A stretch of DNA of 64,000 nucleotides, taken from NCBI RefSeq assembly GCF_004217135.1, contig NZ_SHKK01000001.1, positions 4,464,001 to 4,528,000 on the forward strand. The letters are read 5' to 3'. This DNA comes from Micromonospora violae. Lineage in GTDB: Bacteria; Actinomycetota; Actinomycetes; Mycobacteriales; Micromonosporaceae. A model generated the notes under the pieces. That model ran no database searches. It was not told the DNA's origin and worked only from the letters and a program-made list of their open reading frames with translations. The position numbers were made by a program, and so were the translations under genes. Of the stretch, positions 10,054-38,881 are shown piece by piece (position 1 is the stretch's first letter; the number at the start of each line of letters is the position of its first letter).

Positions 10054-10069
10054 CTGAACGATCGCTAAG
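10054..10069. promoter_or_regulatory. Shared 16-bp operator-like motif, icmA promoter
   Basis: CTGAACGATCGCTAAG is an imperfect palindrome (CTnAnCGA/TCGnTnAG). It lies 55 bases before the icmA ATG, and in the gene direction it is followed by TACACT as a possible -10, the hexamer starting 26 bases from the motif's first base. The spacing is the same at the 3-hydroxybutyryl-CoA dehydrogenase promoter (38866-38881). Confidence 0.65.
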
Positions 10070-10100
10070 TCACTGCCTACCGACGGGTAACGGCCGAACC

Positions 10101-10179
10101 GCGTCGATCATGGAGTTGTGGTGGTGCACAAATCCCGCCGCCGGGGCCAAACCGGCCACCACAACTCCATGATCGACGC
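10101..10179. repeat. 24-bp perfect inverted repeat, family II, copy 1
   Basis: Arms at 10101-10124 and 10156-10179 are perfectly complementary (core TCGATCATGGAGTTGTGG), with a 31-base loop. A second copy of the same arms is at 59905-59979. It sits between the Asp23 gene and the icmA promoter, both on the minus strand. The A-run after it lies on the wrong side for an intrinsic terminator of a plus-strand transcript, but on the minus strand it would be a T-run before the hairpin. I read it as a dispersed palindrome rather than a classic terminator. Confidence 0.7.
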
Positions 10180-10215
10180 AGAAAAAAAGGCGGCGCGGGA
10201 CCCGTCTTGTATCTC

Positions 10216-10629
10216 TCAGGCCGGGGTTGTGGTCGCGGGGTCACCGATCGTCACGTCGTCGACACGGATGTTGACCTCGTCGACCCGCAACCCGTACGCC
10301 TCGACCGCCTCCGTCACCTGGGCGCGCACCTCGCCGGTGATCTCCGGCACCGGGCGACCGGCCTCGGTCACCAGCACCAGGTTGATCACGGCGGCGTCCC
10401 CGGTCACGTAGGCCGAGCAGCCCCGGCGGGCGTCGCCCAGCTGGTCCAGCCCGACCCGGTCGAAAACCGCGTTGAAGAACCGGGCGACGTCCCCGCCCAG
10501 CTCGACCACCCCGGGCACCGCCCTGGCCGCCGCGACGGCGATCTTCTCGACCACCTCGTCGGCGACCTTCGTCGTTCCGCCGGCCGGCACCGACGTCGCG
10601 GCCAACTCCTGCGTCATCTCGTGGTCCAC
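10216..10629 (-). CDS. Asp23/Gls24-family envelope-stress protein (first of a tandem pair in position)
   Basis: 137 residues. The Asp23/Gls24 core runs from about residue 20 to 125 (VADEVVEKIAVAAARAVPGV, then a beta-rich half ending VNIRVDDVTI). In Firmicutes such proteins coat the inner membrane face and affect envelope stress; the actinobacterial role is unknown. The GTG start follows AGGGGAG at 5 bases; an ATG four codons later is also possible. The neighbour at 10668-11084 is a clear paralogue, sharing DVARFFN, GLD, GDARRG and the VNI-VDD ending, so the pair arose by duplication. Confidence 0.86.
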   Translation of the reverse strand: MDHEMTQELAATSVPAGGTTKVADEVVEKIAVAAARAVPGVVELGGDVARFFNAVFDRVGLDQLGDARRGCSAYVTGDAAVINLVLVTEAGRPVPEITGEVRAQVTEAVEAYGLRVDEVNIRVDDVTIGDPATTTPA

Positions 10630-10667
10630 AGCCGCTCCCCTACTGCTCGCGTCACCGCGTCGACGCC

Positions 10668-11084
10668 TCAGGCGCCGGCTGCCCCGGGCTGGTTCAGTTC
10701 GATGTCGTCCACCGTGATGTTGACCTGGGTGACCGTCAGGCCGTACTTCTCCACGGCCTCGATCACCGCGACCCGCACCGCCTCGGTCACGTCGGACACG
10801 ACCCGACCGGCGTCGATCACCAGAACGACATTGATGACCGCCGAGGTGCCCTTCACGTCAGCCGAGATGCCTCGACGGGCGTCGCCCGCCTCGTCCAGAC
10901 CGACCTTGTCCAGGATGCTGTTGAAGAACCGGGCCACATCACCGCCGAGATCGGCGACGCCGGGCACCGAACGAGCGGCGGCACCGGCGATCTTCTCCAC
11001 GACCTCATCGGAGACCAACGTGCCACCCCGGGCGTCGCCCGTCGCGGGCGGCACCGTACCGGCGTTCTCCACCGCGTCCGTCAT
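10668..11084 (-). CDS. Asp23/Gls24-family envelope-stress protein (second copy)
   Basis: 138 residues from ATG 11084, which has GGGGAG about ten bases upstream; an upstream GTG at 11111 would add nine unconserved residues. The core is VSDEVVEKIAGAAARSVPGV through VNITVDDIEL. It is likely the first gene of a two-gene transcript, 38 bases ahead of its paralogue. The 290 bases upstream to meaB hold no recognisable gene or repeat. Confidence 0.86.
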   Translation of the reverse strand: MTDAVENAGTVPPATGDARGGTLVSDEVVEKIAGAAARSVPGVADLGGDVARFFNSILDKVGLDEAGDARRGISADVKGTSAVINVVLVIDAGRVVSDVTEAVRVAVIEAVEKYGLTVTQVNITVDDIELNQPGAAGA

Positions 11085-11375
11085 GATCACATCTCCCCTG
11101 GTCCGGCACATTGTGGACCGATCGTGTCGTCAGCCCGCCGCGGGCCAGCCTCGCTCCCCGGCCACGCGCCGCGAGCCTACTAAAACCGGAGCGACCTTCG
11201 CTTCCGGGCACGCGACGCGCCGCCGGTGCGGGGGCGAGGCCGCCGGAAAGTACGTCCAGTTTGGCGGGTCAGCCGGAGCACCCTGTGGACCGGCCGCCGG
11301 GACCACTGCACGTGGACTCACCTGACGCGCGGCCGTCGCCGCTCACCGGCGGCGGTCCCGCCGGCAGTCCCCGGA

Positions 11376-12380
11376 TCAGCGAGCGAGCTGGGCGAGCAGT
11401 TCGTCGGCCGCCGTGTACGGGTCGATCGCGCCCTCGGCGACCTTCGTGGCCAGCGTGGACAACTCCGTACCGTCGCGTAGTGAGCCGATCCGGGCGCGCA
11501 GGGTGCCGAGCGCGATCGCCTCGATCTCGGCGGCGGCCCGCGCCTCCTGGCGGCGGCGCAGCTCGCCGTGCTCGACCAGCCAACCCCGGTGCTTGTCGAT
11601 GGCGGCGGCGATGTCGTCGATGCCCTCGCCGCGCGCGGCGACCGACCGGACCACCTGCGGCCGCCACTGCCCCGGCCCGCGCTCACCGAGAGCGATCATG
11701 CCCTGGATGTCCCGGACGGTGGCGTCGGCGCCGTCCCGGTCGGCCTTGTTCACGACGAACACGTCGGCGATCTCCAGGATGCCGGCCTTGACCGCCTGGA
11801 TCGCGTCGCCCATTCCGGGCGCGAGCAGCACCAGCGTCGTGTCGGCCAGCGAGGCGACCTCCACCTCGGCCTGCCCGACGCCGACGGTCTCCACCAGCAC
11901 CACGTCGCAGCCGGCGCCCTCCAGCACCCGGACCGCCTGCGGCGTCGCCGCGGCCAGCCCGCCGAGGTGCCCCCGGCTGGACATCGACCGGATGTAGACG
12001 CCCGGATCGGTGGCGTGGTCCTGCATCCGCACCCGGTCACCCAGGATCGCGCCGCCGGTGAACGGGCTGGACGGGTCGACCGCCAGCACACCGACCCGGT
12101 GCCCGTGCGCCCGCAGCGCGCGGACCAACTCGTTCGTGGTGGTCGACTTTCCCACCCCCGGTGAACCGGTCAACCCGACGACCTGCGCCTGCCCGGCGTA
12201 CGGCGCCAGCGCCGCAGCGATCGCCGGCAACAGCGCGTCGCCGTTCTCCACCAGCGTGATCAGGCGGGCCACCGCGCGGGGGTCACCCGCGCGGGCCCGT
12301 TCGACCAGCAGGGGTACGTCCCGGCTGCGGCGCACCGACGTGGTGCCCGCTGCCGGAACCTGCTCGGCCGCTCCGCTCAC
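11376..12380 (-). CDS. meaB: MeaB/ArgK-type GTPase chaperone of B12-dependent acyl-CoA mutases
   Basis: This G3E-family P-loop GTPase gates cofactor delivery to, and protects, adenosylcobalamin mutases. The 334 residues show Walker [10 protein letters not shown] (about 73), the MeaB block [28 protein letters not shown] (Walker B region) and NKAD for guanine recognition. The GTG start overlaps the thiolase stop by 4 bases (GTGA), so translation is coupled to thiolase. It probably serves IcmA, Ecm or both, encoded elsewhere in this window. Confidence 0.94.
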
Positions 12381-13561
12381 TGGCCCGGCACGTGGATGAT
12401 CAGCGCGTCACCCTGGCCACCGCCGCCGCAGAGCGCCGCCGCGCCGGTGCCGCCACCGCGCCGCTTCAACTCCAGGGCGAGGGTGAGGACGAGACGGGCG
12501 CCGGACATGCCGATCGGGTGGCCCAGCGCGATCGCGCCGCCGTTGACGTTGACCTTGTCCGGGCTGATCCCGAGGTCCCTGGTGGACTGGATGCCGACCT
12601 GCGCGAACGCCTCGTTGATTTCGATGAGGTCCAGGTCCGCCACGCTCAGGCCGCCCTTCTTCAGGGCGTGGTTGATCGCGTTGGACGGCTGCGAGTGCAG
12701 GGAGTTGTCCGGGCCCGCCACGTTGCCGTGCGCACCGATCTCGGCCAGCCAGGTCAACCCCAGCTCCCTCGCCTTGGCCTTGCTCATCACCAGCACCGCG
12801 GCGGCGCCGTCGGAGATCGGCGAGGAGCTGCCGGCGGTGATGGTGCCGTCCTTGGCGAAGGCGGGGCGCAACTTGGCCAGCGATTCGACGGTGGTGTCCG
12901 GGCGGATGCCCTCGTCCTCGCTGATCACCAGGGGGTCGCCCTTGCGCTGCGGGATGACCACCGGGGCGATCTCGTCGGCGAAATGGCCGTTCTTCTGGGC
13001 GGCGGCAGCCCGCTGGTGGCTGGCGGCGGCGAAGGCGTCCTGCTCCATACGCGTGATGTTGTGCTTGACGCCGAGCCGCTCAGTCGACTCACCCATCGAG
13101 CAGCAGTCCCAGGCGTCGCTGAGCCCGTCGTGTGCCATGTGGTCCTTGACCACCACGTCGCCGTACTTGTAGCCGGTGCGCTGGCCCATCAGCAGGTGCG
13201 GGGCGTTGGTCATCGACTCCATGCCGCCGGCCACCACGATGTCGAACTCGCCGGCGCGGATCAGCTGGTCGGCCAGGGCGATCGCGTCCAGGCCGGAGAG
13301 GCAGACCTTGTTGATGGTCAGTGCCGGCACGGACATCGGTACGCCGGCCTCGACCGCTGCCTGCCGAGCCGGGATCTGACCGGCGCCGGCCTGCAACACC
13401 TGACCCATGATCACGTACTGGACCTGGTCCGGGCTGACGCCGGCCCGCTCCAGAGCCGCCTTGATGGCGATCCCGCCGAGCTTCGTGGCCGGGAGGTCCT
13501 TGAGGTTGCCCAGCAGCCGGCCCATGGGGGTCCGCGCGCCGCTGACGATCACCGAAGCCAT
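12377..13561 (-). CDS. Acetyl-CoA C-acetyltransferase (thiolase)
   Basis: It condenses two acetyl-CoA to acetoacetyl-CoA or does the reverse. The 394 residues contain the nucleophilic Cys in NKVCLSG (about 89), the His motif [16 protein letters not shown] and the second Cys in CGGGGQGD. The ATG is preceded by GGAGG. It is the first gene of a thiolase-meaB operon and is divergent from the epimerase; the shared 16-bp motif lies between them. As the first step from acetyl-CoA to the C4 acyl-CoAs used by Ccr, it fits an ethylmalonyl-CoA route. Confidence 0.94.
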
Positions 13562-13594
13562 GCCTGCCTCCGAGGGGGGTGCCGAGCTGTACGC

Positions 13595-13610
13595 CTTAAC
13601 GATTGTTCGG
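13595..13610. promoter_or_regulatory. Shared 16-bp operator-like motif between thiolase and epimerase
   Basis: CTTAACGATTGTTCGG; its reverse complement matches the icmA site at 13 of 16 positions. It lies 34 bases upstream of the thiolase ATG and 13 upstream of the epimerase ATG, so one bound protein could affect both genes. Confidence 0.55.
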
Positions 13611-13623
13611 CCAGACTAGCGCC

Positions 13624-14100
13624 ATGGCAGAGAACTCCCCCGTCGAGCCCGGTGCGGACTACGTCACAGACATCGGGCTTCGCAAGATTGACCACGTTGG
13701 GATCGCCGTGGCCGACCTGGACGCCGCGATCGACTTCTACCAGCGGACGTTCGGGATGCGCTGCGTACACGTGGAAACCAACGCCGAGCAGGGCGTTCGG
13801 GAAGCGATGCTGGCCGTCGGACCGACCACCGAGGGCGGCTGCGTGCAGTTGCTCGCGCCGCTCAGCCCGGAGTCGACGATCGCGAAGTTCCTGGACCGCA
13901 ACGGGCCGGGCGTCCAGCAGGTCGCGTACACCGTGGTGGACATCGACGCCGCCTGCGCGGCCCTGCGCGAGCGCGGGATGCGCCTGCTCTACGACGCTCC
14001 CCGCCGCGGCACCGCGGACAGCCGGATCAACTTCGTCCACCCGAAGGACGCCGGTGGCGTCCTCGTCGAACTGGTCCAGCCCGCCCCCGCCAACCACTGA
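13624..14100 (+). CDS. mce: Methylmalonyl-CoA/ethylmalonyl-CoA epimerase
   Basis: It interconverts the 2R and 2S forms of methylmalonyl-CoA (and ethylmalonyl-CoA). The 158-residue glyoxalase-fold protein has two beta-alpha-beta-beta-beta modules: IDHVGIAVADLDAAIDFY at 21 and GVQQVAYTVVDIDAAC near 97. The metal-ligand His of IDHVGIAV and the Glu near the C-terminus (GGVLVELVQP) are present. The start is ATG 13624. The sequence CAGACT ends 7 bases before it, so the transcript is probably leaderless. Its place between thiolase and ccr supports use in the ethylmalonyl-CoA route as well as propionate metabolism. Confidence 0.92.
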   Translation: MAENSPVEPGADYVTDIGLRKIDHVGIAVADLDAAIDFYQRTFGMRCVHVETNAEQGVREAMLAVGPTTEGGCVQLLAPLSPESTIAKFLDRNGPGVQQVAYTVVDIDAACAALRERGMRLLYDAPRRGTADSRINFVHPKDAGGVLVELVQPAPANH

Positions 14101-14145
14101 CCGACTGCCCCCAACCCACTGACCGCCGCCCCCACCGCCCTGCCG

Positions 14146-14215
14146 CCCCTGTTGATCAAGAGGTTTGCGTCATCCTGCGCCTCGTAGGTGACCGAAAGCT
14201 CTTGATCAACAGGGG
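14146..14215. repeat. 17-bp perfect inverted repeat with TTGATCAA core
   Basis: Arms CCCCTGTTGATCAAGAG (14146-14162) and its exact complement (14199-14215) surround a 36-base loop. It lies 45 bases after the epimerase stop. It may end the epimerase transcript, which would separate it from ccr, or be another member of the GATCA-core palindromes of this chromosome. Confidence 0.7.
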
Positions 14216-14311
14216 GTGGCGGAGTGCGCGCGCACGTCAGTGCGCGGTTGGCGGGGTGGTCGGGCAGCTTCACGCATCGGCGGATGCAGTTTTTCACAGA
14301 GGACTTCCCGG

Positions 14312-14327
14312 CCTAGCTACCGTTCAG
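14312..14327. promoter_or_regulatory. Shared 16-bp operator-like motif, ccr promoter
   Basis: CCTAGCTACCGTTCAG; its reverse complement matches the icmA site at 13 of 16 positions. Extended to the right it shares the 13-mer TACCGTTCAGTAA with the ecm promoter (35233-35245). It overlaps the possible -10 TAACGT, which is where a repressor would act. Confidence 0.6.
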
Positions 14328-14455
14328 TAACGTCCGGCCCCACAGGAGCGCGACCGGTGCCGGATGTGTCGAATGCCGACATGGCGGTCGTGCCCACCGG
14401 CGCCGACGATGGCAGCACCCGGGCCCGTACGGGTGCGGATGAACCGGAGGTCACC

Positions 14456-15811
14456 GTGCAGGACATCCTCGAAGCGATCATGGCGGCGGAGGAATCGAAC
14501 GATCCGGACCGCGAACTCGCCGGTGTCGCCGGGCTGCCCGTACCGGAGAGCTACCGAGGCGTGGTGGTCCGCGCCGAGGAGGCCCGGATGTTCGACGGCA
14601 TGGCCACCCGGGACAAGGACCCGCGCAAGGCGCTGCACGTGCAGGAGGTGCCGACCCCGGAGCTGGCGCCGGGTGAGGCGCTGATCGCGGTGATGGCCAG
14701 CGCGATCAACTACAACACGGTGTGGACCAGCATCTTCGAGCCGCTGCCCACCTTCCGGTTCCTGGAACGCTACGGCCGGGTCTCCGAGCTGACCCGCCGA
14801 CACGACCTGCCGTACCACGTGGTCGGCTCGGACGCGGCGGGCGTGGTGTTGCGCACCGGCCCCGGGGTGACCCGCTGGGCGCCCGGCGACGAGGTGGTCG
14901 CGCACTGCCTCTCCGTCGAGCTGGAGGACGCGGCCGGGCACGACGACACCATGCTCGACCCGCAGCAGCGGATCTGGGGCTTCGAGACCAACTTCGGCGG
15001 GCTGGCCGAGATGGCGGTGGTCAAGGCCAACCAGCTGATGCCCAAGCCGCGGCACCTGAGCTGGGAGGAGGCGGCCAGCCCGGGGCTGGTCAACTCCACC
15101 GCGTACCGGCAGCTCGTCTCGCACCACGGCGCCAACATGAAGCAGGGTGACGTGGTGCTGATCTGGGGCGCGTCCGGCGGCCTCGGCGGGTACGCCACGC
15201 AGATGGCGCTCAACGGCGGCGCGATCCCGGTCTGCGTGGTGTCCTCACCGGAGAAGGCCGAGCTGTGCCGCAAGATGGGTGCCGAGCTGGTCATCGACCG
15301 GGCCGCGGAGGGCTTCCGCTTCTGGAAGGACGAGGAGACCCAGGACCCGGACGAGTGGCGGCGCTTCGGCGAACGGATCCGCGAGCTGACCAGCGGCGAG
15401 GACCCGGACATCGTGTTCGAGCACCCGGGTCGGGAGACGTTCGGGGCCAGCGTCTACGTGGCCCGGCGTGGCGGGACCATCGTCACCTGCGCCTCCACCA
15501 GCGGCTTCAACCACCAGTACGACAACCGCTACCTGTGGATGCACCTCAAGCGGATCGTCGGCAGTCACTTCGCCAACTACCACGAGGCGTGGCAGGCCAA
15601 CCGCCTGGTCGCGCTCGGCAAGGTGCACCCGACGGTGTCCCGCAGCTATCCGTTGGAGCAGACCGGTCAGGCCGCGTACGAGGTGCACCGCAACGCCCAC
15701 CAGGGCAAGGTCGGGGTGCGCTGCCTCGCCCCCCGCGACGGACTGGGCGTACGCGACGGAGAGTTGCGGGCCCAGCACGAGGACGCGATCAACCGGTTCC
15801 GGGGTCACTGA
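14456..15811 (+). CDS. ccr: Crotonyl-CoA carboxylase/reductase
   Basis: NADPH-dependent reductive carboxylation of crotonyl-CoA to (2S)-ethylmalonyl-CoA, the key step of the ethylmalonyl-CoA pathway and the source of ethylmalonyl extender units. The medium-chain dehydrogenase fold shows the CO2-pocket residues known for the family: Asn in AINYNTVW, Phe-Glu in WGFETNFGG, and His in FNHQYDNRY. The NADPH loop is WGASGGLGGYATQ. The GTG at 14456 follows GGAGG by 5 bases and gives 451 residues, the usual family length. An in-frame GTG at 14357 would add 33 unconserved residues. A hairpin at 15945-15976 ends the transcript. Confidence 0.93.
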   Translation: MQDILEAIMAAEESNDPDRELAGVAGLPVPESYRGVVVRAEEARMFDGMATRDKDPRKALHVQEVPTPELAPGEALIAVMASAINYNTVWTSIFEPLPTFRFLERYGRVSELTRRHDLPYHVVGSDAAGVVLRTGPGVTRWAPGDEVVAHCLSVELEDAAGHDDTMLDPQQRIWGFETNFGGLAEMAVVKANQLMPKPRHLSWEEAASPGLVNSTAYRQLVSHHGANMKQGDVVLIWGASGGLGGYATQMALNGGAIPVCVVSSPEKAELCRKMGAELVIDRAAEGFRFWKDEETQDPDEWRRFGERIRELTSGEDPDIVFEHPGRETFGASVYVARRGGTIVTCASTSGFNHQYDNRYLWMHLKRIVGSHFANYHEAWQANRLVALGKVHPTVSRSYPLEQTGQAAYEVHRNAHQGKVGVRCLAPRDGLGVRDGELRAQHEDAINRFRGH

Positions 15812-16131
15812 CCGGCGCCGCCGGCCCCGGGGTCACTGACCGGCGTCGTCGGTACCGGCCGGACGGTGGAACGCCGGATGACCATTGCGCCGATCGCTCA
15901 TTGTTCTTCCGCCCCCATTAGCGGATAGCCCACCCGGATCGAACAAAGGGCCTCGGGGTAACCCCGGGGCCCTTTTCCGCGTCACGCTGCGTGGTGTCCG
16001 ACCCGCCGGGACCTGCCAAGATCGCGGATTGGTCCAACCTCGTCGATCGGGGGAGTTGACCATGTAAAGAGGGCATGAAAGCTGCGCACCGCTCTTGCGA
16101 AGCACCCTGGGGCGTCTGCCAGTATGTCCCA
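15812..16131. other. Region between ccr and filP
   Basis: It holds the ccr terminator (15945-15976) and the filP promoter region. TTGACC at 16056 is a possible -35 without a convincing partner. CAGTAT (16120-16125) ends 7 bases before the filP ATG and would give a leaderless transcript. No gene is seen. Confidence 0.5.
15945..15976 (+). terminator. Intrinsic terminator after ccr
   Basis: AAAGGGCCTCGGGG pairs with CCCCGGGGCCCTTT (one T-G pair) around a 3-base loop and runs into TTTT. It is 134 bases after the ccr stop. Confidence 0.8.
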
Positions 16132-17394
16132 ATGCCCCAGCAGCAGTCCTCCCCTCTCGCGTTCTTCGATAACGCGAACTCGCAGCCAGATTTCACCGTT
16201 GGCCTGCGCGGATACAACACCCATCAGGTCGATGACTTCCTCGGCCGGATGACCGCCGCGCTGACCCAGTCCGACCAGGCCCGTGCCGAGGCCGAGCAGC
16301 GGATGAACGACGCCCAGCGTCGGCTCCGCCAGGCCGAGCAGCGCATGAGTGCGCTGGAGCAGAAGCTCACCGACACGAACAAGCAGCTCGAAGAGAACAG
16401 CCGGCCCACCCTCTCCGGGCTCGGCACCCGCGTTGAGCAGATCCTCCGGCTCGCCGAGGAGCAGGCCAACGACCACCGCAACGAGGCCAAGCGCGAGTCG
16501 GAGGGCATCCTCTCCGCCGCCCGCCTCGAAGCCCGTGAGATCACCGACAAGGCCCGCGCCGAGGCCGCCGCCATGAAGGCGAGCGCCGAGCGCGAGGCGG
16601 GCAACCTGCGTACGGCCGCCGAGCGCGAGGCCGCCGAGGTCCGGGTGCAGGCCCGCCGCGAGGCTGACACGCTGCGCGCCGACGCCGACCGGGAGACCAA
16701 GCAGCTGCGTACGGTCACCGCCCACGAGGTGGCCGAGCTGAAGTCGACCGTCGAGCGGGAGGTGGCCACCCTCCGGGCCACCGCCGAGCGGGAGATCACC
16801 CAGCAGCGGGCGAAGGCGGCCCGCGAGGCTGAGGAGAAGCGCGCCGAGGCGACCAAGCTGCTCACCGACGCGCGGGACAAGCGCGACAAGGACCTCCAGG
16901 CCCTGGAGCTGCAGCTGGCCGAGCGTCGGGAGAAGGCCGAGCGCGAGGAGTCCGAGCGCCACGCCGCCCAGGTCGCGCAGACCCAGAAGATGGTCAGCGA
17001 GGCCGAGCAGCGTGCCCGGGCCGCACAGGAGCGGGCCAAGGAGATCGAGCAGCGGGCCGAGGCGCGGCGGGTCGAGTCTGAGCGCAACGCCGCCGAGACG
17101 ATCGACAAGGCCAAGGCGCACGCGGACAAGACCCTCAACGAGGCGAAGGCCGAGTCGCAGCGTCTGCTCACCGAGGCTCGCACCGAGGCCGAGCTGACCA
17201 CGCAGGCCGCCCGCCGCGAGGTCGAGGACCTCACCCGGCAGAAGGACGCGGTCACCTCGCAGCTGGGTCAGATGCTCTCCGGGCTCGCCGGCATCGTCCC
17301 GGGGATGCCGGCGCAGGGCGCTGCGGCTGCCAAGCCGGACGCCAAGAAGACCGATGGCGGTCAGGAGCGGGTGCCCGCGGAGACCGCCGGCTGA
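16132..17394 (+). CDS. filP: FilP-like coiled-coil cytoskeletal protein with DivIVA-like N-terminus
   Basis: 420 residues, nearly all alpha-helical coiled coil rich in Glu, Arg and Ala. The N-terminus (TVGLRGYNTHQVDDFLGRM) is a DivIVA-like membrane/pole targeting segment. LSGLGTRVEQILRLAEEQAN and the C-terminal AARREVEDLTRQKDAVTSQL match my recollection of Streptomyces FilP, an intermediate-filament-like protein that stiffens the growing hyphal tip with DivIVA. Streptomyces FilP is about 310 residues, so this one has a longer rod. The gene is followed by a hairpin and then a Scy-like gene, the same pairing as in Streptomyces. The start may be leaderless. Confidence 0.82.
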   Translation: MPQQQSSPLAFFDNANSQPDFTVGLRGYNTHQVDDFLGRMTAALTQSDQARAEAEQRMNDAQRRLRQAEQRMSALEQKLTDTNKQLEENSRPTLSGLGTRVEQILRLAEEQANDHRNEAKRESEGILSAARLEAREITDKARAEAAAMKASAEREAGNLRTAAEREAAEVRVQARREADTLRADADRETKQLRTVTAHEVAELKSTVEREVATLRATAEREITQQRAKAAREAEEKRAEATKLLTDARDKRDKDLQALELQLAERREKAEREESERHAAQVAQTQKMVSEAEQRARAAQERAKEIEQRAEARRVESERNAAETIDKAKAHADKTLNEAKAESQRLLTEARTEAELTTQAARREVEDLTRQKDAVTSQLGQMLSGLAGIVPGMPAQGAAAAKPDAKKTDGGQERVPAETAG

Positions 17395-17421
17395 CCCGAG
17401 GCGTCGGGTCGGGGCATCGAC

Positions 17422-17461
17422 GGCGCGAGGTGACACCGGGTAACCGGTGCCACCTCGCGCC
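17422..17461. terminator. Hairpin after filP
   Basis: GGCGCGAGGTG/CACCTCGCGCC (11 bp) and CACCGG/CCGGTG (6 bp), with one mismatch between them and a GTAA loop. There is no T-tract. It would separate filP from the scy-like gene. Confidence 0.6.
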
Positions 17462-25414: not shown

Positions 25415-27205
25415 TCAGCGGTGGGAGTGGTCGCGGAAGCCGCGGCGGGTCTTGCGACCCAGGTAGCCGGCGGTGACCAGGTGCTCCAGCAGCGGTGCGG
25501 GCGCGAAGCCCGGCTCGCGTAGTTCCAGGTACAGCTCACGCTGGATCGCCAGGGAGACGTCCAGCCCGACCACGTCGAGCAGCTCGAACGGGCCCATCGG
25601 GTAGCCGCAGCCCAGCTTCATGGCGTGGTCGATGTCGTCGGCCGTCGAGTAGCTGGCCTCCAGCATCTTCACCGCGTCGTTGAGGTACGGGAAGAGCAGC
25701 GCGTTGACGATGAAGCCGGACCGGTCGCCGCAGACCACACCGGTCTTGCCGAGCGCGGCGCAGACGGCGCGAGCGGTGGCGGTGGCCTCCGGTGAGGTGC
25801 GGATGGTGCGGACGACCTCGACCAGCGGCATCACCGGCGCCGGGTTGAAGAAGTGCAGCCCCACCACGTCGGCCGGCCGCTGGGTGGCCATCGCCACGTC
25901 GATCACCGGCAGCGACGAGGTGGTGGTGGCCAGCACCACGCCCGGCTTGCAGATCTCGTCGAGGCTCGCGAAGAGGGCCTTCTTGACGCTCAGCTCCTCG
26001 ACGACCGCCTCGACCACCAGGTCGACGTCGGCGAGGTGGTCGAGCGTCGCCGACCAGCTGATCCGGCCCAGGGCGGCGTCCCGATCGGCTTCGGCGAGCT
26101 TGCCCCGCACCACGCCCTTGTTCAGCGAGGTCTTCACCGCCTCGCAGACCTTCGCGGACTTCTCCATGCCGCGGGTCACCGAGATGACCTCGTAGCCGGC
26201 CTTCGCGAAGACCTCGATGATCCCGGTGGCCATCGTCCCGGAACCCACCACACCAACCTTGGCGATGGCGCGGGCCCCGTCGGCGAACGCGGCCTCCGTG
26301 GCCAGCGGCGTCGCCTCATCCGGTACGACCACCGGGGAGCCGGGCCGCTCGTAGGTGTAGAAGCCCCGGCCCGACTTCCGGCCGAGCAGCCCCGCCGTCA
26401 CCATCTGCTTGAGCAGCGGCACCGGTGCGTGCCGGCGGTCCCGCCCGCCACGCCGGTACATGGTGTCCAGGATCTCGTACGCGGTGTCCAGGCCGATCAG
26501 GTCCATCAGGGCCAGTGGGCCCATCGGCAGGCCGCAGCCGAGCTTCATCGCGGCGTCGATGTCCTCCCGGGTCGCGTAGTGCGACTCGAACATGCCGACG
26601 GCGTGGTTGAGGTAGCCGAAGAGCAGGGCGTTGGCGATGAATCCGGCCCGGTCGTTGATGGTGACGTCGACCTTGCCGAGGCGGGTGCAGAGCGCCTCGA
26701 CGTCGGCGACCACCTCGGGTGCGGTGACGACGGTGCGGACCACCTCGACCAGCTTCATGACCGGGGCCGGGTTGAAGAAGTGGATGCCGATCACCTGGTT
26801 GGGTCGGCTGGTGGCGACCGAGATCTCGGTGACGCTCAGCGACGAGGTGTTGGTGGCGAGGATCGCCTCCGGTCGGCAGACCCGGTCCAGCTCCGCGAAG
26901 ATCCGCTGCTTGAGGTCGAGGTGTTCGGGCACCGCCTCGATGACCAGGTCGACGGAGTGCAGTGCCTCCAGCCCGACCGCGAAGTGCACCCGCTCGTGCA
27001 GGGCGTCGCGGTCGGCCTCGGCGAGCTTGCCCTTGGCGACCGCCCGATCGGTGGAGCCGGTGAGGGTGGCCCGGCCGCGCTCCAGCGCCGGCGCGGAGAT
27101 CTCCACGGCCACCACGTCGATGCCGTTGCGGGCGAAGACCTCGACGATGCCGGCACCCATGGTGCCCAGCCCCACCACGCCAACGGTGCTGAACTCGCGC
27201 GCCAC
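25415..27205 (-). CDS. Double-domain 3-hydroxyacyl-CoA dehydrogenase
   Basis: 596 residues made of two tandem 3-hydroxybutyryl-CoA dehydrogenase units (about 1-290 and 310-596), each with NAD-binding GxGxMxxGI (GLGTMGAGI and GSGTMATGI), the catalytic His in HFFNPAPVM, the Glu in VEVVRT, and a C-terminal helical domain (GRKSGRGFYTY and GRKTRRGFRDH). The conserved Asn after the beta strand is kept in unit 1 (ATNTSS) but is Thr in unit 2 (ATTTSS), so unit 2 may be weaker or specialised. It oxidises (S)-3-hydroxyacyl-CoA or does the reverse. The shared motif lies 32 bases upstream of the GTG. Confidence 0.88.
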   Translation of the reverse strand: MAREFSTVGVVGLGTMGAGIVEVFARNGIDVVAVEISAPALERGRATLTGSTDRAVAKGKLAEADRDALHERVHFAVGLEALHSVDLVIEAVPEHLDLKQRIFAELDRVCRPEAILATNTSSLSVTEISVATSRPNQVIGIHFFNPAPVMKLVEVVRTVVTAPEVVADVEALCTRLGKVDVTINDRAGFIANALLFGYLNHAVGMFESHYATREDIDAAMKLGCGLPMGPLALMDLIGLDTAYEILDTMYRRGGRDRRHAPVPLLKQMVTAGLLGRKSGRGFYTYERPGSPVVVPDEATPLATEAAFADGARAIAKVGVVGSGTMATGIIEVFAKAGYEVISVTRGMEKSAKVCEAVKTSLNKGVVRGKLAEADRDAALGRISWSATLDHLADVDLVVEAVVEELSVKKALFASLDEICKPGVVLATTTSSLPVIDVAMATQRPADVVGLHFFNPAPVMPLVEVVRTIRTSPEATATARAVCAALGKTGVVCGDRSGFIVNALLFPYLNDAVKMLEASYSTADDIDHAMKLGCGYPMGPFELLDVVGLDVSLAIQRELYLELREPGFAPAPLLEHLVTAGYLGRKTRRGFRDHSHR

Positions 27206-27236: not shown

Positions 27237-27252
27237 CTGAACGGCCGCTAAG
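27237..27252. promoter_or_regulatory. Shared 16-bp operator-like motif, double-domain dehydrogenase promoter
   Basis: CTGAACGGCCGCTAAG matches the icmA site at 14 of 16 positions; only the two central bases differ. In the gene direction a TAACCT hexamer directly precedes it, so here the motif would lie just downstream of the -10. Confidence 0.6.
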
Positions 27253-32082: not shown

Positions 32083-32153
32083 CTGACGAGGGTAGCCGAG
32101 CCCCCGCCGGTCGCCAGCGAGCGGCACTGGCGCGTCGATGCGATGCTGAGACC

Positions 32154-32771: not shown

Positions 32772-32898
32772 GGCGTGCTCGACTCGGGTGCCCGGGTTTA
32801 CGTCGATCAGCCGTGCGCCCCGTCCGCAGGTCGCCATATCGCGGTTCCGCCGACCGACATATGCCTACGATCGGGGCAGGAGCCTAGAGGAGGTCGGC

Positions 32899-33195
32899 AT
32901 GACCGCAGCGTTGGAGATGCCCCGAGTCCAGGAATGTGTGGTCGCCGCGTGCGCGTACAACCAGTCGGGTGACTGCCACGCCTTCGCGATCACCATCGGC
33001 AGCATGGATCACGCACACTGCCACACCTTCGTCGAGTCGCCGGTCCAGGGCGGCGTGGAGAGCCTGATCGCGCAGGTGGGTGCCTGCCAACGATCCGACT
33101 GCCGGCACAACGAGCAGTTGGAGTGCCACGCGACGTCCATCCGGGTCGGCCCGGACAACGACATGGCCGACTGCATGACCTACGCCGGCCGCTGA
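32899..33195 (+). CDS. DUF1540 protein with two Cys-rich modules
   Basis: 98 residues, two DUF1540 repeats: CVVAACAYNQSGDCHAFAI and CQRSDCRHNEQLECHATSI, each followed by an Asp and Cys (HCHTF, DCMTY). The regular Cys/His spacing suggests two small metal-binding modules. The role is unknown. The ATG follows GAGGAGGT. A TACGAT (32866-32871) is a plausible -10. Confidence 0.85.
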   Translation: MTAALEMPRVQECVVAACAYNQSGDCHAFAITIGSMDHAHCHTFVESPVQGGVESLIAQVGACQRSDCRHNEQLECHATSIRVGPDNDMADCMTYAGR

Positions 33196-33210
33196 CCCGG
33201 GCCGAACCGG

Positions 33211-35217
33211 TCAGGGCAGGTCGTTGGCGCGACGGATGACCGTCACCAGGTCGTCGATGATGCCGGTGAGGGCGAAGTCCTTCGGGGTGAAGACCCGGGC
33301 GACCCCGGCCGCCCGGAGGGTGTCCGCGTCGCTGGCCGGGATGATGCCGCCGACGACCACCGGCAGGTCCGCCCGGCCAGCGGCGCGCAGCCCGTCGAGC
33401 ACCGCGGGCACGGCGGCCAGGTGCGATCCGGAGAGCACGGAGAGCCCGACCAGGTCGACGTCCTCCTGCACGGCAGCGGTGACGATCTGCCCCGCGGTCA
33501 ACCGGATGCCCTGGTAGACGACCTCGAAGCCGGCGTCGCGGGCGCGTACCGCGATCTGTTCCGCGCCGTTGGAGTGCCCGTCCAGGCCGGGTTTGCCGAC
33601 CAGCAGCCGCAGCCGGCCACTGCCCAACTCCCGGGCGGTGGCGGCGACCCGCTCGCGGACCGCCGCGAGGCCCTGCTCACCGCCGCCGCCGGTGCCGCCG
33701 GCGAGGCCGGTCGGCGCCCGGTACTCGCCGAAGACCTGGCGCAGCGCGCCGGCCCACTCGCCGGTGGTCACCCCGGCCCGCACGCACTCCAGCGTCGCCG
33801 GCATCAGGTTGGTGGTGGTCGCGGCGTCCGCGCGCAGCCGGGCCAGCGCCGCGTCGACCACGGCCGCGTCCCGCGCGGCCCGCCACCGGTGTACGCCGTT
33901 CACGGCCGCCGCCTCGACCGCCGGATCGACCTGCTCGACGGTCGCCGCGCCGGCGGCGGTCAGCGGGGAGGGTTCGGTCTCGGTGTACCGGTTGACCCCG
34001 ACCACCACGTCGGCACCGGACTCCATCCGCCGGCGGCGTTCGGCCAGCGACGCGACCAGCGCGCTCTTGAGGTAGCCGGTCTCCACGGCGGCGACGACGC
34101 CGCCCAACTCGAGCACCTTGTCCAACTCGACCCGCGCCCCGGTGACCACCTCGTCGACCAGCGCGGTCATCACGTGCGAGCCGGCGAAGAGGTCGGGGTA
34201 TTCGAGCAGGTCCGACTCGTACGCCAGGACCTGCTGCATCCGCAGCGACCACTGCTGGTCCCACGGGCGGGGCAGGCCGAGGGCCTCGTTCCAGGCGGGC
34301 AGTTGGACCGCCCGGGCGCGCGCGTCGCGGGACATCGTCACGCCGAGCATCTCCAGCACGATGCGCTGGATGTTGTTCTCCGGCTGCGCCTCGGTGAGGC
34401 CGAGCGAGTTGACCTGCACGCCGTAACGGAATCGCCGTTGCCGGGCGTCGGTGACCCCGTACCGGTCCCGGGTGATCTCGTCCCAGAGCACGCCGAACGC
34501 GCGCATCTTGGCGATCTCCTCGACGAAGCGCACCCCGGCGTTGACGAAGAACGAGATCCGCTGGACCACGTCGCCCATCCGCTCGGCCGGCACCTGGCCG
34601 GAGTCACGGACAGCGTCGAGCACGGCGACGGCGGTGGCCAGCGCGAAGCCGACCTCCTGCACGGGCGTGGCGCCGGCCTCCTGGAGGTGGTACGAGCAGA
34701 TGTTGACCGGGTTCCACCGGGGCATCTCGCGCAGCGTGTACGCCACCACGTCGGCGGTGAGCCGCAGCGACGCCGCCGGCGGGAAGATGTAGGTGCCCCG
34801 GGACAGGTACTCCTTGATGATGTCGTTCTGGGTGGTGCCGGCGCACCGGGCCAGGTCGGCGCCCTGCTCCAGCCCGACGGTGCCGTACAGGGCGAGCAGC
34901 CACATCGCCGGGGCGTTGATGGTCATCGAGGTGTTCGTGTCGGCGAGCGGGAGACCGTCGAAGAGCGCCCGCATGTCACCGAGGTGGGCCACCGGCACAC
35001 CGACCCGGCCGACCTCACCGGTGGCGAGTTCGTGGTCCGGGTCGTACCCGGTCTGGGTGGGCAGGTCGAAGGCGACCGAGAGCCCGGTCTGCCCCTTCGC
35101 CAGGTTGCGGCGGAAGAGAGCGTTGGTCGCCGCGGCCGACGAGTGGCCGGCGTAGGTGCGCATCACCCACGGGCGGTCCCGCTCGGGCAGCCGCCCCGGG
35201 AATGCCGTCTCATCCAT
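33211..35217 (-). CDS. ecm: Ethylmalonyl-CoA mutase
   Basis: An adenosylcobalamin enzyme converting (2R)-ethylmalonyl-CoA to methylsuccinyl-CoA. The 668 residues have the mutase barrel with RTYAGHSSAAATN, DLPTQTGYDPDH, EYLSRGTYIFPP and QVNSLGLTEAQPENN, closely following Ecm/MeaA rather than methylmalonyl-CoA mutase. The C-terminal B12 domain has the DxHxxG motif in GLDGHSNG, with GLSVLSGSH and VVGGIIP, so barrel and B12 domain are on one chain, unlike IcmA. TAGACT is exactly at -12 to -7 of the ATG, and the shared motif overlaps the promoter. Confidence 0.94.
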   Translation of the reverse strand: MDETAFPGRLPERDRPWVMRTYAGHSSAAATNALFRRNLAKGQTGLSVAFDLPTQTGYDPDHELATGEVGRVGVPVAHLGDMRALFDGLPLADTNTSMTINAPAMWLLALYGTVGLEQGADLARCAGTTQNDIIKEYLSRGTYIFPPAASLRLTADVVAYTLREMPRWNPVNICSYHLQEAGATPVQEVGFALATAVAVLDAVRDSGQVPAERMGDVVQRISFFVNAGVRFVEEIAKMRAFGVLWDEITRDRYGVTDARQRRFRYGVQVNSLGLTEAQPENNIQRIVLEMLGVTMSRDARARAVQLPAWNEALGLPRPWDQQWSLRMQQVLAYESDLLEYPDLFAGSHVMTALVDEVVTGARVELDKVLELGGVVAAVETGYLKSALVASLAERRRRMESGADVVVGVNRYTETEPSPLTAAGAATVEQVDPAVEAAAVNGVHRWRAARDAAVVDAALARLRADAATTTNLMPATLECVRAGVTTGEWAGALRQVFGEYRAPTGLAGGTGGGGEQGLAAVRERVAATARELGSGRLRLLVGKPGLDGHSNGAEQIAVRARDAGFEVVYQGIRLTAGQIVTAAVQEDVDLVGLSVLSGSHLAAVPAVLDGLRAAGRADLPVVVGGIIPASDADTLRAAGVARVFTPKDFALTGIIDDLVTVIRRANDLP

Positions 35218-35222
35218 GGCCG

Positions 35223-35228
35223 GAGTCT
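35223..35228 (-). promoter_or_regulatory. Leaderless -10 of ecm
   Basis: On the minus strand TAGACT is followed by six bases and the ATG, placing the transcription start at the A of ATG. The operator-like motif is directly upstream and overlaps the first base of the -10. Confidence 0.6.
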
Positions 35229-35242
35229 AAGTTACCGTTCAG
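35227..35242. promoter_or_regulatory. Shared 16-bp operator-like motif, ecm promoter
   Basis: CTAAGTTACCGTTCAG; it matches the icmA site at 12 of 16 when reverse-complemented. The 13-mer TACCGTTCAGTAA (35233-35245) is identical to that at ccr (14318-14330). It sits between the -35 position and the -10. Confidence 0.6.
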
Positions 35243-35368
35243 TAAAAAGGGCTGTGGAAAACCACACAGGTCCATGTCGGGGACGTCCGGGTGCCAAGCG
35301 CCCGCAGTGGCGCGGACCGCCACACCCCGGGCACCACCCAGGCCAGGCCAGGACGCACACTGGACAGC

Positions 35369-36220
35369 ATGGATGACGAGCTGGCCATCTCCGTCCGAGG
35401 GCTGCGCAAGGCGTACGGCGACAACGTGGCCGTGGCGGGCGTGGATCTCGACGTCCACCGTGGCGAGGTGTTCGCGTTGCTCGGCCCCAACGGCGCTGGC
35501 AAGACCACCACGGTGGAGATCCTGGAGGGCTACCGGCGTCGCGACTCGGGCGAGGTGACGGTGCTCGGCACGGACCCGGCCCAGGCCGATCCGGACTGGC
35601 GGTCCCGCGTGGGCATCGTGCTGCAGGGCACCGGGGAGTTCGACGAGCTGACAGTGGCCGAGGTGGTCCGGCACTTCTCCGGCTTCTATGCCGACGCCGA
35701 CGACCCGGACAAGGTGATCGAGCGGGTCGGGTTGACCGACAAGGCGAAGGCTCGTACGCACACCCTCTCCGGCGGCCAGAAGCGCCGCCTGGACGTGGCG
35801 CTGGGCATCATCGGCCGACCGGAGCTGCTCTTCCTCGACGAGCCGACCACCGGTTTCGACCCCGAGGCCCGCCGCGAGTTCTGGGAGCTGATCCGCGACC
35901 TCGCCGCAGCCGGCACCACCATTCTGCTCACCACCCACTACCTGGACGAGGCCGAGGCCCTCGCCGACCGGGTCGGCGTGATCGCCGGCGGTCGGCTGGT
36001 CGAGGTGGCCGCCCCGAACCGGCTGGGCAATCGGCAGGAGGCCCTCGCGACGGTCTCCTGGCGTACCCCGGAAGGGACCTTGGACAGCGCGCAGACCGCG
36101 ACGCCGACGGCCTTCGTGGCCGACCTCGCCGCGCGCCACGACGGCGAGGTCCCCGGGCTCACGGTGACCCGGCCGACCCTGGAGGACGTCTACCTCACCA
36201 TGATCGGACACGCGCGATGA
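35369..36220 (+). CDS. ABC transporter ATP-binding subunit (drug-exporter type)
   Basis: 283 residues from ATG 35369. Walker A is GPNGAGKTTT, the signature is LSGGQKRR, Walker B is LLFLDEPTTGFD, and the switch His is in LLTTHYLDEAE. The C-terminal extension (about 225-283) matches the DrrA-like exporters. It overlaps the permease start by four bases (ATGA). The substrate is unknown. CACACT about 7 bases upstream of the ATG may be the -10 of a leaderless transcript. Confidence 0.88.
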   Translation: MDDELAISVRGLRKAYGDNVAVAGVDLDVHRGEVFALLGPNGAGKTTTVEILEGYRRRDSGEVTVLGTDPAQADPDWRSRVGIVLQGTGEFDELTVAEVVRHFSGFYADADDPDKVIERVGLTDKAKARTHTLSGGQKRRLDVALGIIGRPELLFLDEPTTGFDPEARREFWELIRDLAAAGTTILLTTHYLDEAEALADRVGVIAGGRLVEVAAPNRLGNRQEALATVSWRTPEGTLDSAQTATPTAFVADLAARHDGEVPGLTVTRPTLEDVYLTMIGHAR

Positions 36221-37062
36221 CGACCACGACGAAGCCGGCGACGCCGATCACCGCGACCCGCGGCCGGCGGCCGGGTGCCGCTGCGCTCGCCCTGCGCCAG
36301 GGCCGGCTGGAGACCACCCAGTTCCTGCGCAGCCGGGAGTCGGTGGTCTTCACGATGGGCTTCCCCATCATCATGATCCTGATCTTCGCGTCGATCTTCC
36401 ATGGGACGATCGGCGGCGGGGTGAAGTTCACGCAGTACTTCATCACCGGCATGATCGCGACCGGTCTGATGACCGTGAGCTTCCAGAACCTGGGCATCTG
36501 GATCCCGGTCGAGCGGGACCGAGGGGTGCTCAAGCGCTACCGGGGCACGCCGATGCCGAAGTGGGTCTGGTTCGCCGGCAAAGTGATCATGGTGGTGGTG
36601 ATCGGAATCGCCGAGACGGCGCTGCTGCTGGCCGTCGCGGTGGCGCTGTTCGACCTCGACCTGCCCGGCACCGCCGAGAAGTGGTTCACCTTCGGCTGGG
36701 TAGCCGTACTCGGGGTGACCGCGTGCACCCTGTCCGGCATCGCGATCTCGTCGCTGGCCCGCAGCGCCCGCAGCGGCTCGGCGGTGGTCACCCCGGTCGC
36801 CCTGGTCCTCCAGTTCATCTCCGGGGTGTTCTTCGTCTTCACCGACCTGCCCACCTGGATGCAGCAGGTGGCGGCGCTGTTCCCGCTCAAGTGGATGTGC
36901 CAGGGCCTGCGGTCGGTGTTCCTGCCGGAGAGCTTCGGCGCCCAGGAACCGGGCGGCTCGTTCGAGCTGGGCCGGGTGGCGATGGTGCTGGCCCTGTGGT
37001 GCGTGATCGGCCTGGTGGTCTGCCTGACCACCTTCCGCTGGACCACCAAGCGCGACGGCTGA
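36217..37062 (+). CDS. ABC-2 type permease
   Basis: 281 residues with six membrane segments (FTMGFPIIMILIFASIF, YFITGMIATGLMTVSF, VIMVVVIGIAETALLL, FGWVAVLGVTACTLSGI, VTPVALVLQFISGVFFVF, MVLALWCVIGLVVCL). The intracellular ERDRGVLKRYRGTP coupling segment is typical. It forms an exporter with the preceding ATPase through translational coupling. Confidence 0.88.
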   Translation: MTTTTKPATPITATRGRRPGAAALALRQGRLETTQFLRSRESVVFTMGFPIIMILIFASIFHGTIGGGVKFTQYFITGMIATGLMTVSFQNLGIWIPVERDRGVLKRYRGTPMPKWVWFAGKVIMVVVIGIAETALLLAVAVALFDLDLPGTAEKWFTFGWVAVLGVTACTLSGIAISSLARSARSGSAVVTPVALVLQFISGVFFVFTDLPTWMQQVAALFPLKWMCQGLRSVFLPESFGAQEPGGSFELGRVAMVLALWCVIGLVVCLTTFRWTTKRDG

Positions 37063-37109
37063 GCCCTTCCGGGGCCCACGATCCGCCCCGGAGCTGCCAG
37101 ACTTCGACG

Positions 37110-37922
37110 ATGACCGTTCGACCGACCCGGCGTGGGCTGCTCCTCGCGGGGGCAGGAGCGACGGCGCTGACGGTGGGGGTCGGCTGGGCAGCCCGTGACC
37201 TGATCCGCCCCTCGCCGGCACGGCCCGATCCCCCGGACGCGCCGGCCGGCGACGAGCGACTGACCAGCCGCCCGTCCGCCGCACGTGGCCGCTCGGTCGA
37301 CTTCTACACCGCCGTCCCGGCCGGGCACGGCGACGGTCAGGGGTTGCCCGTCTGCCTCGTGCTGCACGGCGCGTCCACCACCGCACGGGACTTCCCCGGG
37401 CTCGGCCTGGGCCGATTCCTGACCGATGCGGTACGTCGGGGCGCACCGCCGTTCGTGCTCGCCGGAGCGACCGGCGACCGCCTCTCCTGGCGGCCCGCCG
37501 GCCGGGACGACCCGCAACGGATGGTGCGGGAGGAACTGCCGGCCTGGTGTGCCGAGCAGGGCTTCGACGCTGGCCGGCTGGCGGCCTGGGGCTGGTCCAT
37601 GGGTGGCTTCGGCTCGCTGTTGCTCGCCGAGACCTGGCCGGGGCTACTCCGGGCGGTGGCGGCCTTCTCCCCCGCCGTCGCGCCCGGCGACGCCGTCTTC
37701 GCCGGTGTCGATCGGCTGCGCGGCGCTCCACTGGGCCTCTGGTGCGGTCGCCAGGACGACCTTCTCGACGACGTGCAGGCGCTGGAACGGGCCCTTCCCG
37801 AGCCGGCCGCCCGAGCCGAGTACGCCGACGGCCGGCACGACTTCCGGTACTGGGGCTCGGTCATACCCGACGCCCTCGACTTCGTCGCGGCGGCGCTGAC
37901 CGCGCCGCCCGGCCCGAACTGA
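37110..37922 (+). CDS. Tat-exported esterase of the alpha/beta hydrolase fold
   Basis: 270 residues. The N-terminus has a Tat-like signal (TRRGLLLAGAGATALTVGV) and a short Pro-rich linker. The fold carries CLVLHGAS as oxyanion loop, nucleophile GWSMGGFG, and a His in DGRHDFRYW. It resembles the esterase-D/antigen-85-like secreted group; the substrate is unknown. CAGACT occupies -12 to -7 of the ATG, so it is transcribed separately from the ABC genes. It is convergent with the next dehydrogenase. Confidence 0.82.
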   Translation: MTVRPTRRGLLLAGAGATALTVGVGWAARDLIRPSPARPDPPDAPAGDERLTSRPSAARGRSVDFYTAVPAGHGDGQGLPVCLVLHGASTTARDFPGLGLGRFLTDAVRRGAPPFVLAGATGDRLSWRPAGRDDPQRMVREELPAWCAEQGFDAGRLAAWGWSMGGFGSLLLAETWPGLLRAVAAFSPAVAPGDAVFAGVDRLRGAPLGLWCGRQDDLLDDVQALERALPEPAARAEYADGRHDFRYWGSVIPDALDFVAAALTAPPGPN

Positions 37923-37964
37923 GCCGACCGCGGGGCCTACCTGCGGGCCCCGCGGCTGCCGGTC

Positions 37965-38813
37965 TCAGTAGGTGTAGAAGCCCTTGCCGGTCTTGCGACC
38001 CAGGTCACCGGCGGTGACCATCCGCTGGAGCAGCTCCGGCGGGAAGAACTTCTCGTCGGCGGTGTCGGTGTAGATGTTCTTCGAGGCGTGCAGCAGCACG
38101 TCCACGCCGGTCAGGTCGGTGGTGGCCAGGGGGCCCATCGCGTGCCCGAAGCCCAGCCGGCAGGCGGTGTCCAGGTCCTCCGCGGACACCACCCCGGACT
38201 CGACCAGCTTGACCGCCTCCATCACCAGCGCGGAGATCAGCCGGGTCGTGACGAAGCCGGCGATGTCCCGGTTGACCACGACGACCGTCTTGCCGATCTC
38301 CTCGGCGAAGGCCCGCGCGGTGTCCAGCGTGGCGTCGCTGGTCTTGTAGCCGCGAACCAGCTCGCAGAGCTGCATCATCGGCACCGGGGAGAAGAAGTGC
38401 GTGCCGACGACCGCCTCGGGCCGCTCGGTCACCGCGGCGATCTGGGTGACCGGGATGGCCGAGGTGTTGGTGGCCAGCACCGCGTCCGACTTGCAGATCT
38501 TGTCCAGGGCACGGAACACCTCGTGCTTGATCTCCAGCCGCTCGAAGACCGCCTCGACCACGATGTCCGCGTCGGCCGCCGCCTCCAGGTCGGTGGTCGG
38601 GGTGATCCGAGCCAGCGTCGCCTCGACCTCGGACGCCTCGATCTTGCCCTTCTCGGCGAACTTCTCCAGTGACTTCCGAATGCCGCCGAGACCCCGGGTG
38701 GTGGCCGCGTCGTCCAGGTCGCGCAGCGTCACCTGCCAGCCCGCCTGCGCCGCCACCTGGGCGATGCCGGACCCCATCAACCCGGCCCCGACGACCGCGA
38801 GTCGACCCGCCAT
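37965..38813 (-). CDS. 3-hydroxybutyryl-CoA dehydrogenase
   Basis: NAD(P)-dependent oxidation of (S)-3-hydroxybutyryl-CoA or reduction of acetoacetyl-CoA. The 282 residues show GAGLMGSGIAQ (nucleotide loop), ATNTSAIPVT, catalytic His in GTHFFSPVPMM, Glu in CELVRG, and the C-terminal DRKTGKGFYTY-like end (GRKTGKGFYTY). GGGAG lies eight bases before the ATG. The shared motif 53 bases upstream and a TAGGGT -10 have the same spacing as at icmA, which links it to the same control. Confidence 0.92.
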   Translation of the reverse strand: MAGRLAVVGAGLMGSGIAQVAAQAGWQVTLRDLDDAATTRGLGGIRKSLEKFAEKGKIEASEVEATLARITPTTDLEAAADADIVVEAVFERLEIKHEVFRALDKICKSDAVLATNTSAIPVTQIAAVTERPEAVVGTHFFSPVPMMQLCELVRGYKTSDATLDTARAFAEEIGKTVVVVNRDIAGFVTTRLISALVMEAVKLVESGVVSAEDLDTACRLGFGHAMGPLATTDLTGVDVLLHASKNIYTDTADEKFFPPELLQRMVTAGDLGRKTGKGFYTY

Positions 38814-38865
38814 CTACTTCTCCCTCGCTGCGATTGAGTGCCTGCCTGCACCCTAGTCGGCGAGC

Positions 38866-38881
38866 CTGAACGATGGCTAAG
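38866..38881. promoter_or_regulatory. Shared 16-bp operator-like motif, 3-hydroxybutyryl-CoA dehydrogenase promoter
   Basis: CTGAACGATGGCTAAG differs from the icmA site by one base. In the gene direction TAGGGT begins 26 bases from the motif start, exactly as TACACT does at icmA. Confidence 0.65.

Follow-up and report, generated by a model that had tools for sequence, protein, structure and literature searches.

The window analysed here, a 64-kb stretch of the Micromonospora violae genome (positions 4464001-4528000 of a 7.14 Mb single contig, about 0.9% of the chromosome), contains several genes of acyl-coenzyme A (acyl-CoA) metabolism whose promoters share a 16-bp near-palindrome with the consensus CTTAACGATCGTTMAG. 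This motif is a real, conserved site, and most likely it is where a TetR repressor binds. Five-digit and smaller coordinates count from the first base of the window, and larger ones are chromosomal. On the minus strand, an icmA-like gene (8311-9999) encodes a 562-residue acyl-CoA mutase large subunit (TIGR00641, 665 bits) with a probable preference for isobutyryl-CoA. A thiolase gene for acetyl-CoA acetyltransferase (12377-13561, minus; TIGR01930 over cut-off), with the meaB GTPase gene downstream of it (11376-12380, minus; TIGR00750 over cut-off), diverges from a methylmalonyl-CoA epimerase gene (13624-14100, plus; TIGR03081 over cut-off). Crotonyl-CoA carboxylase/reductase is encoded by ccr (14357-15811, plus; TIGR01751 over cut-off), for which the start codon was chosen by eye and the open reading frame is listed from 14384. 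The remaining three genes lie on the minus strand and specify a 596-residue double-domain 3-hydroxyacyl-CoA dehydrogenase (25415-27205; NF005875 over cut-off in two stretches), a 668-residue ecm/meaA-like B12-dependent mutase (33211-35217; TIGR00641 and TIGR00640 over cut-off) and a 282-residue 3-hydroxybutyryl-CoA dehydrogenase, hbd (37965-38813; NF004474 at 329.5 bits, under its cut-off of 408). The nearest PDB chains to the ecm product are methylmalonyl-CoA mutases, and its ethylmalonyl-CoA specificity is presumptive; family models and PDB matches place this enzyme and those of mcd, mcl and mch at the superfamily level.

Six predicted operators stand before these genes, each present where a sequence-only reading of the window had placed it. 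The sites before icmA (CTTAGCGATCGTTCAG, 10054-10069, minus), the double-domain dehydrogenase gene (CTTAGCGGCCGTTCAG, 27237-27252, minus) and hbd (CTTAGCCATCGTTCAG, 38866-38881, minus) lie 54, 31 and 52 bases from the respective start codons, as counted from the sequence. A single site, CTTAACGATTGTTCGG (13595-13610), serves the divergent pair, 33 bases from the thiolase start and 13 from that of the epimerase. Two sites belong to a weaker class: CCTAGCTACCGTTCAG before ccr (14312-14327, plus), 29 bases from a GTG at 14357 or 53 from an ATG at 14381, and the ecm site (35227-35242, minus), which reads CTAAGTTACCGTTCAG on the plus strand and lies 9 bases from the start codon. The range of 11 to 55 bases proposed by the earlier reading thus holds for the other sites, and for ecm the distance is 9, not 11. 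Its claim of an identical spacing between motif and -10 element at icmA and hbd is borne out, with 10 bases to a -10-like hexamer in both. Of the 22 icmA promoters of the family that carry the site, 18 have a spacing of 8-10 bases when read by eye and three one of 0-1; the last cannot be read clearly. Also by eye, a TAnnnT follows the ccr site directly, and a -10-like TAnnnT lies inside the ecm site.

Whether the motif exceeds chance was assessed with several patterns. A scan of the window allowing three mismatches gave 17 matches where 10.3 were expected, an enrichment too weak to serve as sole proof, and it was set aside in that role. The strict pattern CTNANYNNNCGTTCAG matches five times in the whole genome, four of them in the window (icmA, the double-domain dehydrogenase gene, ecm and hbd) and the fifth just before an acyl-CoA dehydrogenase gene at 6362412; its backwards control matches nowhere. 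Because this pattern was composed after the sites were known, other tests were sought. A matrix trained on 29 sites linked to TetR or accD genes in other genera places the six sites at ranks 1, 2, 3, 5, 6 and 7 within the window, a test that is partly circular because the training sites were found with window-derived patterns. In 40 Markov resamplings, the matches expected per 64 kb at each site's score were 0.0 for icmA, 0.025 for the epimerase/thiolase site, 0.1 for hbd, 0.15 for the double-domain dehydrogenase gene, 0.95 for ccr and 2.2 for ecm, so that the last two are supported by conservation and not by score. The fourth-ranked match, ATCAACGCTCGTTCAG (43299-43314), is probably due to chance; it lies 65 bp upstream of a gene at 42097-43233 (minus) beside ATP synthase genes and has no counterpart at the orthologous gene in the relative G003 (locus L082). 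A symmetric pattern was rejected, since it also caught a second palindrome, CTGACCGATCGGTCAG, before another TetR gene at 4549824. There, perfect tandem copies at 4549726-4549760 (locus L016) form a related-looking, separate operator.

Over ten genomes, the pattern YTNANCGNNCGTTMRG gave 92 matches versus 18 for its backwards form. By our own tally, 53 of the 76 matches inspected (16 were not) precede a regulon-type gene, taken as an acyl-CoA, branched-chain, electron-transfer-flavoprotein, proline dehydrogenase or TetR gene. The other 23 comprise loci L257, L259, L263, L264, L265, L266, L270, L274 (inside ilvE), L277, L281, L283, L286 (two matches), L288, L289, L292, L294, L314 and L316, together with L032, L025, L101 and L111 of M. 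violae. In a further set of 19 loci, eight matches precede accD, ilvE, hbd or an acyl-CoA dehydrogenase gene, and L423, L425, L426, L427, L428, L432, L433, L434, L437, L438 and L440 have no such gene.

Conservation upstream of orthologous genes provides further support. The icmA site recurs in 22 of 26 Micromonosporaceae promoters from genomes selected without regard to it (at a 27th locus the gene start is missing). In ten relatives, counting only genes inside the fetched stretches, it is found in the epimerase/thiolase gap in 10/10, at ccr in 3/4, at ecm in 2/2, at hbd in 2/2 and at the double-domain dehydrogenase gene in 3/3. As these ten were chosen by their icmA site, conservation at icmA is taken only from the set of 26 promoters.

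The sequence-only reading found no regulator gene in the window, and we agree. Its suggestion of one regulator, perhaps of the TetR type, is well supported, and the class can now be narrowed to the BkaR/AccR-type TetR of the leucine and acyl-CoA carboxylase cluster. The candidate, a protein of 199 residues, is encoded at 5682624-5683223, just before accA, hmgL and accD-acd. Residues 16-197 align to Fad35R (PDB 4G12), the nearest solved structure, with an E-value of 3.8e-41, and the similarity extends over the full length; against NF050111, the SACE_7040 family, the protein scores 224.3 bits over nearly its full length, under the curated cut-off of 250, and is therefore not filed in that family. 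Its closest named relatives include proteins of M. arida and M. saelicesensis at 99%, and the DNA-reading helix is invariant among eleven aligned relatives that are 78-93% identical. The gene neighbours acyl-CoA carboxylase, hmgL and acyl-CoA dehydrogenase genes in M. violae and in 9/9 relatives, and is matched in 57 of 61 Micromonosporaceae genomes. In 50 TetR loci (179 kb; TetR and icmA starts placed by tblastn for upstream counts), matches scoring at least 16 lie within 90 bp upstream of the TetR gene in 22 cases, between it and accA, within roughly 160 bp of its end, in 10, and elsewhere in 2. Even when no matrix is used, CGTTCAG stands out as the most frequent 7-mer of the 150 bp that precede this gene (22/50 loci). 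A site of its own, which the earlier reading had proposed looking for at a TetR gene, thus stands upstream in 22 of the 50 loci and is absent in M. violae itself. In genus g33 (G033 and G059), neither the TetR nor icmA (at E 1e-200) is matched, and by per-genome counts its two genomes are the only ones of the 61 without a strict-pattern match.

Outside the window, M. violae carries sites at ppdK (4195381), accD-acd (5686608), an acyl-CoA dehydrogenase gene (6158284), a MaoC-type hydratase gene (6368281), a biotin carboxylase gene (6515265) and ilvE (6993322), and at a zinc-type dehydrogenase gene directly downstream of malic enzyme (4611360). Malic enzyme was rejected as a target, since the latter site lies beyond it, with the zinc-type dehydrogenase gene probably starting about 18 bases further on, an arrangement repeated in G045. 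In the 14 TetR-bearing genomes examined, accD is preceded by a site in all and ilvE/leuB in nine. Single or few relatives have sites at zinc-type dehydrogenase, biotin carboxylase, mcd, mch, enoyl-CoA hydratase, hmgL, electron-transfer-flavoprotein beta, proline dehydrogenase and acyl-CoA dehydrogenase genes. One such acyl-CoA dehydrogenase gene recurs as a target (L295, L302, L315, L278, L290 and L441); in the first three loci it stands beside a creatinase/prolidase-like (M24) peptidase gene, confirmed with Pfam for L295. Together, the targets trace a path by which branched-chain amino acids and fatty acids reach central carbon metabolism via propionyl-CoA and the ethylmalonyl-CoA pathway. 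The earlier idea of a B12/ethylmalonyl-CoA regulon as such does not survive, for the sites also occur at leucine, branched-chain, carboxylase and pyruvate-phosphate dikinase genes; its B12 component is dropped because genes unrelated to B12 bear the same site. Nothing seen points to B12 sensing, and no RNA-family (Rfam) search was made.

Comparison across families suggests how this regulon may have arisen. TetR orthologues of other families have GTTA-N8-TAAC in their promoters in 18 of 23 cases. Micromonosporaceae sites resemble CTTA-N8-TMAG, with outer bases C..G or mixed (a single G, A or T in several), and among the 22 that lie upstream of TetR the G..C outer pair of GTTA-N8-TAAC is never seen. 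The position equivalent to Arg64 of Fad35R, a predicted DNA-binding residue, is His in 50/50 Micromonosporaceae proteins (His57 in the M. violae TetR) and Arg (18) or Lys (5) in the 23 outgroups. No TTA-N8-TAA site occurs in the 28 outgroup icmA promoters in view (a set that leaves out L375), although the TetR is present in nine of these genomes with at least 49% identity and is matched weakly in a tenth. Sixteen of the 28 contain GGACGTCC or GGGCGTCC within palindromes such as TACTAGGACGTCCTAGTA. Palindromes like the latter stand 20-70 bp before many icmA starts outside the Micromonosporaceae. At two loci checked with Pfam, a MarR gene lies directly upstream of icmA: L350:373-879, from an outgroup, and L397:3334-3843 (minus), from G035 of the Micromonosporaceae, which has no TetR site at icmA and keeps one before accD. 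Three further Micromonosporaceae icmA promoters (L382, L384 and L400) show neither the TetR site nor the MarR arrangement. It looks as though the regulator at icmA changed, and the TetR seems to have extended its control in Micromonosporaceae from leucine breakdown to the ethylmalonyl-CoA pathway. A more specific scenario, which we put forward tentatively and at somewhat less than even odds, is that the replacement of Arg/Lys by His in the recognition helix shifted the operator from GTTA-N8-TAAC to CTTA-N8-TMAG and accompanied the takeover of the ethylmalonyl-CoA and icmA genes, displacing an older MarR-type icmA regulator whose arrangement G035 would retain. Since the His and operator shifts represent a single evolutionary event, cause is not established.

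Taken together, these observations make it highly probable that the 16-bp near-palindrome serves as operator for a dimeric TetR repressor that counts BkaR/Fad35R and AccR among its relatives, is encoded in the leucine cluster and has a shifted operator and an expanded regulon. By analogy with its relatives, the ligand-free dimer would block transcription by covering the -35 region at icmA and hbd, as the operator there ends ten bases before the -10-like hexamer, or the -10 region at ccr and ecm. The dimer would then be released by a short-chain acyl-CoA that arises when branched-chain compounds, propionate or fatty acids are broken down, as in related systems, the proposed sensing of acyl-CoA by the TetR being modelled on them. 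Release would jointly open leucine catabolism, propionyl- and methylmalonyl-CoA handling, isobutyryl-CoA mutase and the ethylmalonyl-CoA pathway and, in M. violae, the step from pyruvate to phosphoenolpyruvate (pyruvate-phosphate dikinase, PPDK).

Several observations weigh against this interpretation. The TetR promoter of M. violae has no site (best score 0.5), nor do 28 of the 50 Micromonosporaceae loci upstream of the gene. The site is missing from 4/26 icmA promoters and from one of four at ccr, and no recognisable regulon gene follows 23 of the 76 matches inspected, one of which precedes dnaA in M. violae (L032). The joint absences in g33 come from one genus with incomplete assemblies, and G033 has two matches to a looser pattern, neither beside regulon genes. 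G002 and G005 lack a TetR match yet keep the icmA site, in fragmented assemblies (810 and 1080 contigs), and G038 has the TetR with no icmA match. Within the wider regulon, the M. violae sites at the mcd-like dehydrogenase gene (6362412, score 12.1) and the mcl-like lyase gene (13.4) are weak, and the evidence for ppdK comes from the M. violae genome alone. Finally, the ccr and ecm sites are low-scoring and share TACCGTTCAGTAA, a possible mark of a second factor.

This last point underlies the alternative that survives best, in which the TetR governs icmA, the thiolase/epimerase pair and the dehydrogenases while ccr and ecm answer to another factor or carry a dual site. The TetR-trained matrix gives ccr 9.4 and ecm 7.8, both low, and the extended sequence that the two share has, by eye, its own dyad, TTAC-N6-GTAA; but the ccr site of G016 is of the ordinary type (22.6), and the ecm sites of G016 and G045 retain the CGTTCAG arm, which leaves a division of labour unlikely, if a serious contender. 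Another proposal is that the window genes and the leucine cluster both answer to a different TetR (or to a dimeric regulator of another type) that is encoded elsewhere and recognises the same operator, the adjacent TetR being just one of its targets. This proposal gains from the bare TetR promoter of M. violae and from the 65 TetR_N matches in that genome, including the TetR at 4549824 with its tandem palindromes. Against it, BkaR, a proven relative, recognises sites built on the same 16-bp plan at the operon to which it belongs, and the outgroup orthologues carry such sites at their own promoters in the proportion given above, so we hold it to be improbable. Activation by the TetR at some promoters appears slightly less probable again: the site before icmA and hbd is so placed that an activator could use it too, but the spacing is only 0 or 1 in three icmA promoters, the ccr and ecm sites abut or overlap -10-like hexamers, and both BkaR and AccR act by repression. 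Chance resemblance or a widespread core-promoter element, for which the mild enrichment of three-mismatch matches might speak, is exceedingly improbable given the genome-wide controls, the conservation across genera and the position of the site at the TetR gene.

Acyl-CoA pools supply polyketide antibiotics in these bacteria. If the proposed TetR control is correct, a single repressor would govern leucine breakdown, propionyl-CoA, isobutyryl-CoA mutase and the ethylmalonyl-CoA pathway and so give one handle on extender units, and in the Micromonosporaceae one could follow how a regulon was taken over while the helix that reads the DNA changed to match.

CcrR of Methylobacterium and PccR of Rhodobacter are regulators with which this system may be compared. 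RamB of Paracoccus, which acts in the switch between the ethylmalonyl-CoA and glyoxylate pathways, ties regulation to the ethylmalonyl-CoA pathway, according to the portions of the literature consulted, but is proteobacterial. In the same partial coverage, limited to open-licence sources, no link of an AccR/BkaR-type TetR to icmA or the ethylmalonyl-CoA pathway was found, and novelty is claimed provisionally. In Streptomyces albus, valine raised the transcripts of an isobutyryl-CoA mutase gene and an AccR homologue and lowered that of ccr, as excerpted (PMC8176718); this response is related, yet it is no test of the link between the TetR and icmA or the ethylmalonyl-CoA pathway. PccD of Saccharopolyspora erythraea and Mycolicibacterium, described in the extracts available as a BkaR homologue, is similarly a TetR repressor, acting on propionyl-CoA carboxylase, but the site given for S. 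erythraea has another sequence. AccR of Streptomyces avermitilis also binds a 16-nt palindrome with TTAA arms, targets accD1A1-hmgL-fadE4, echA8, echA9 and fadE2, and responds to methylcrotonyl-, propionyl- and acetyl-CoA. Its site, however, is GTTAA-N6-TTAAC, and the AccR literature examined, in part, names no ethylmalonyl-CoA or icmA target. Mycobacterial BkaR/Fad35R (Rv2506, MSMEG_4718), in the sources seen a proven autoregulatory repressor of a branched-chain keto-acid operon, shares with the M. violae TetR full-length similarity, an accD1/accA1/fadE19 neighbourhood and a 16-bp palindrome. BkaR differs in that the core of its operator is GTTA(N)T(N4)A(N)TAAC and that its regulon, as far as those sources describe it, comprises some 10-12 genes centred on branched-chain keto acids, whereas the Micromonospora operators have C/G or mixed outer bases and extend to ethylmalonyl-CoA genes, icmA, ilvE and ppdK.

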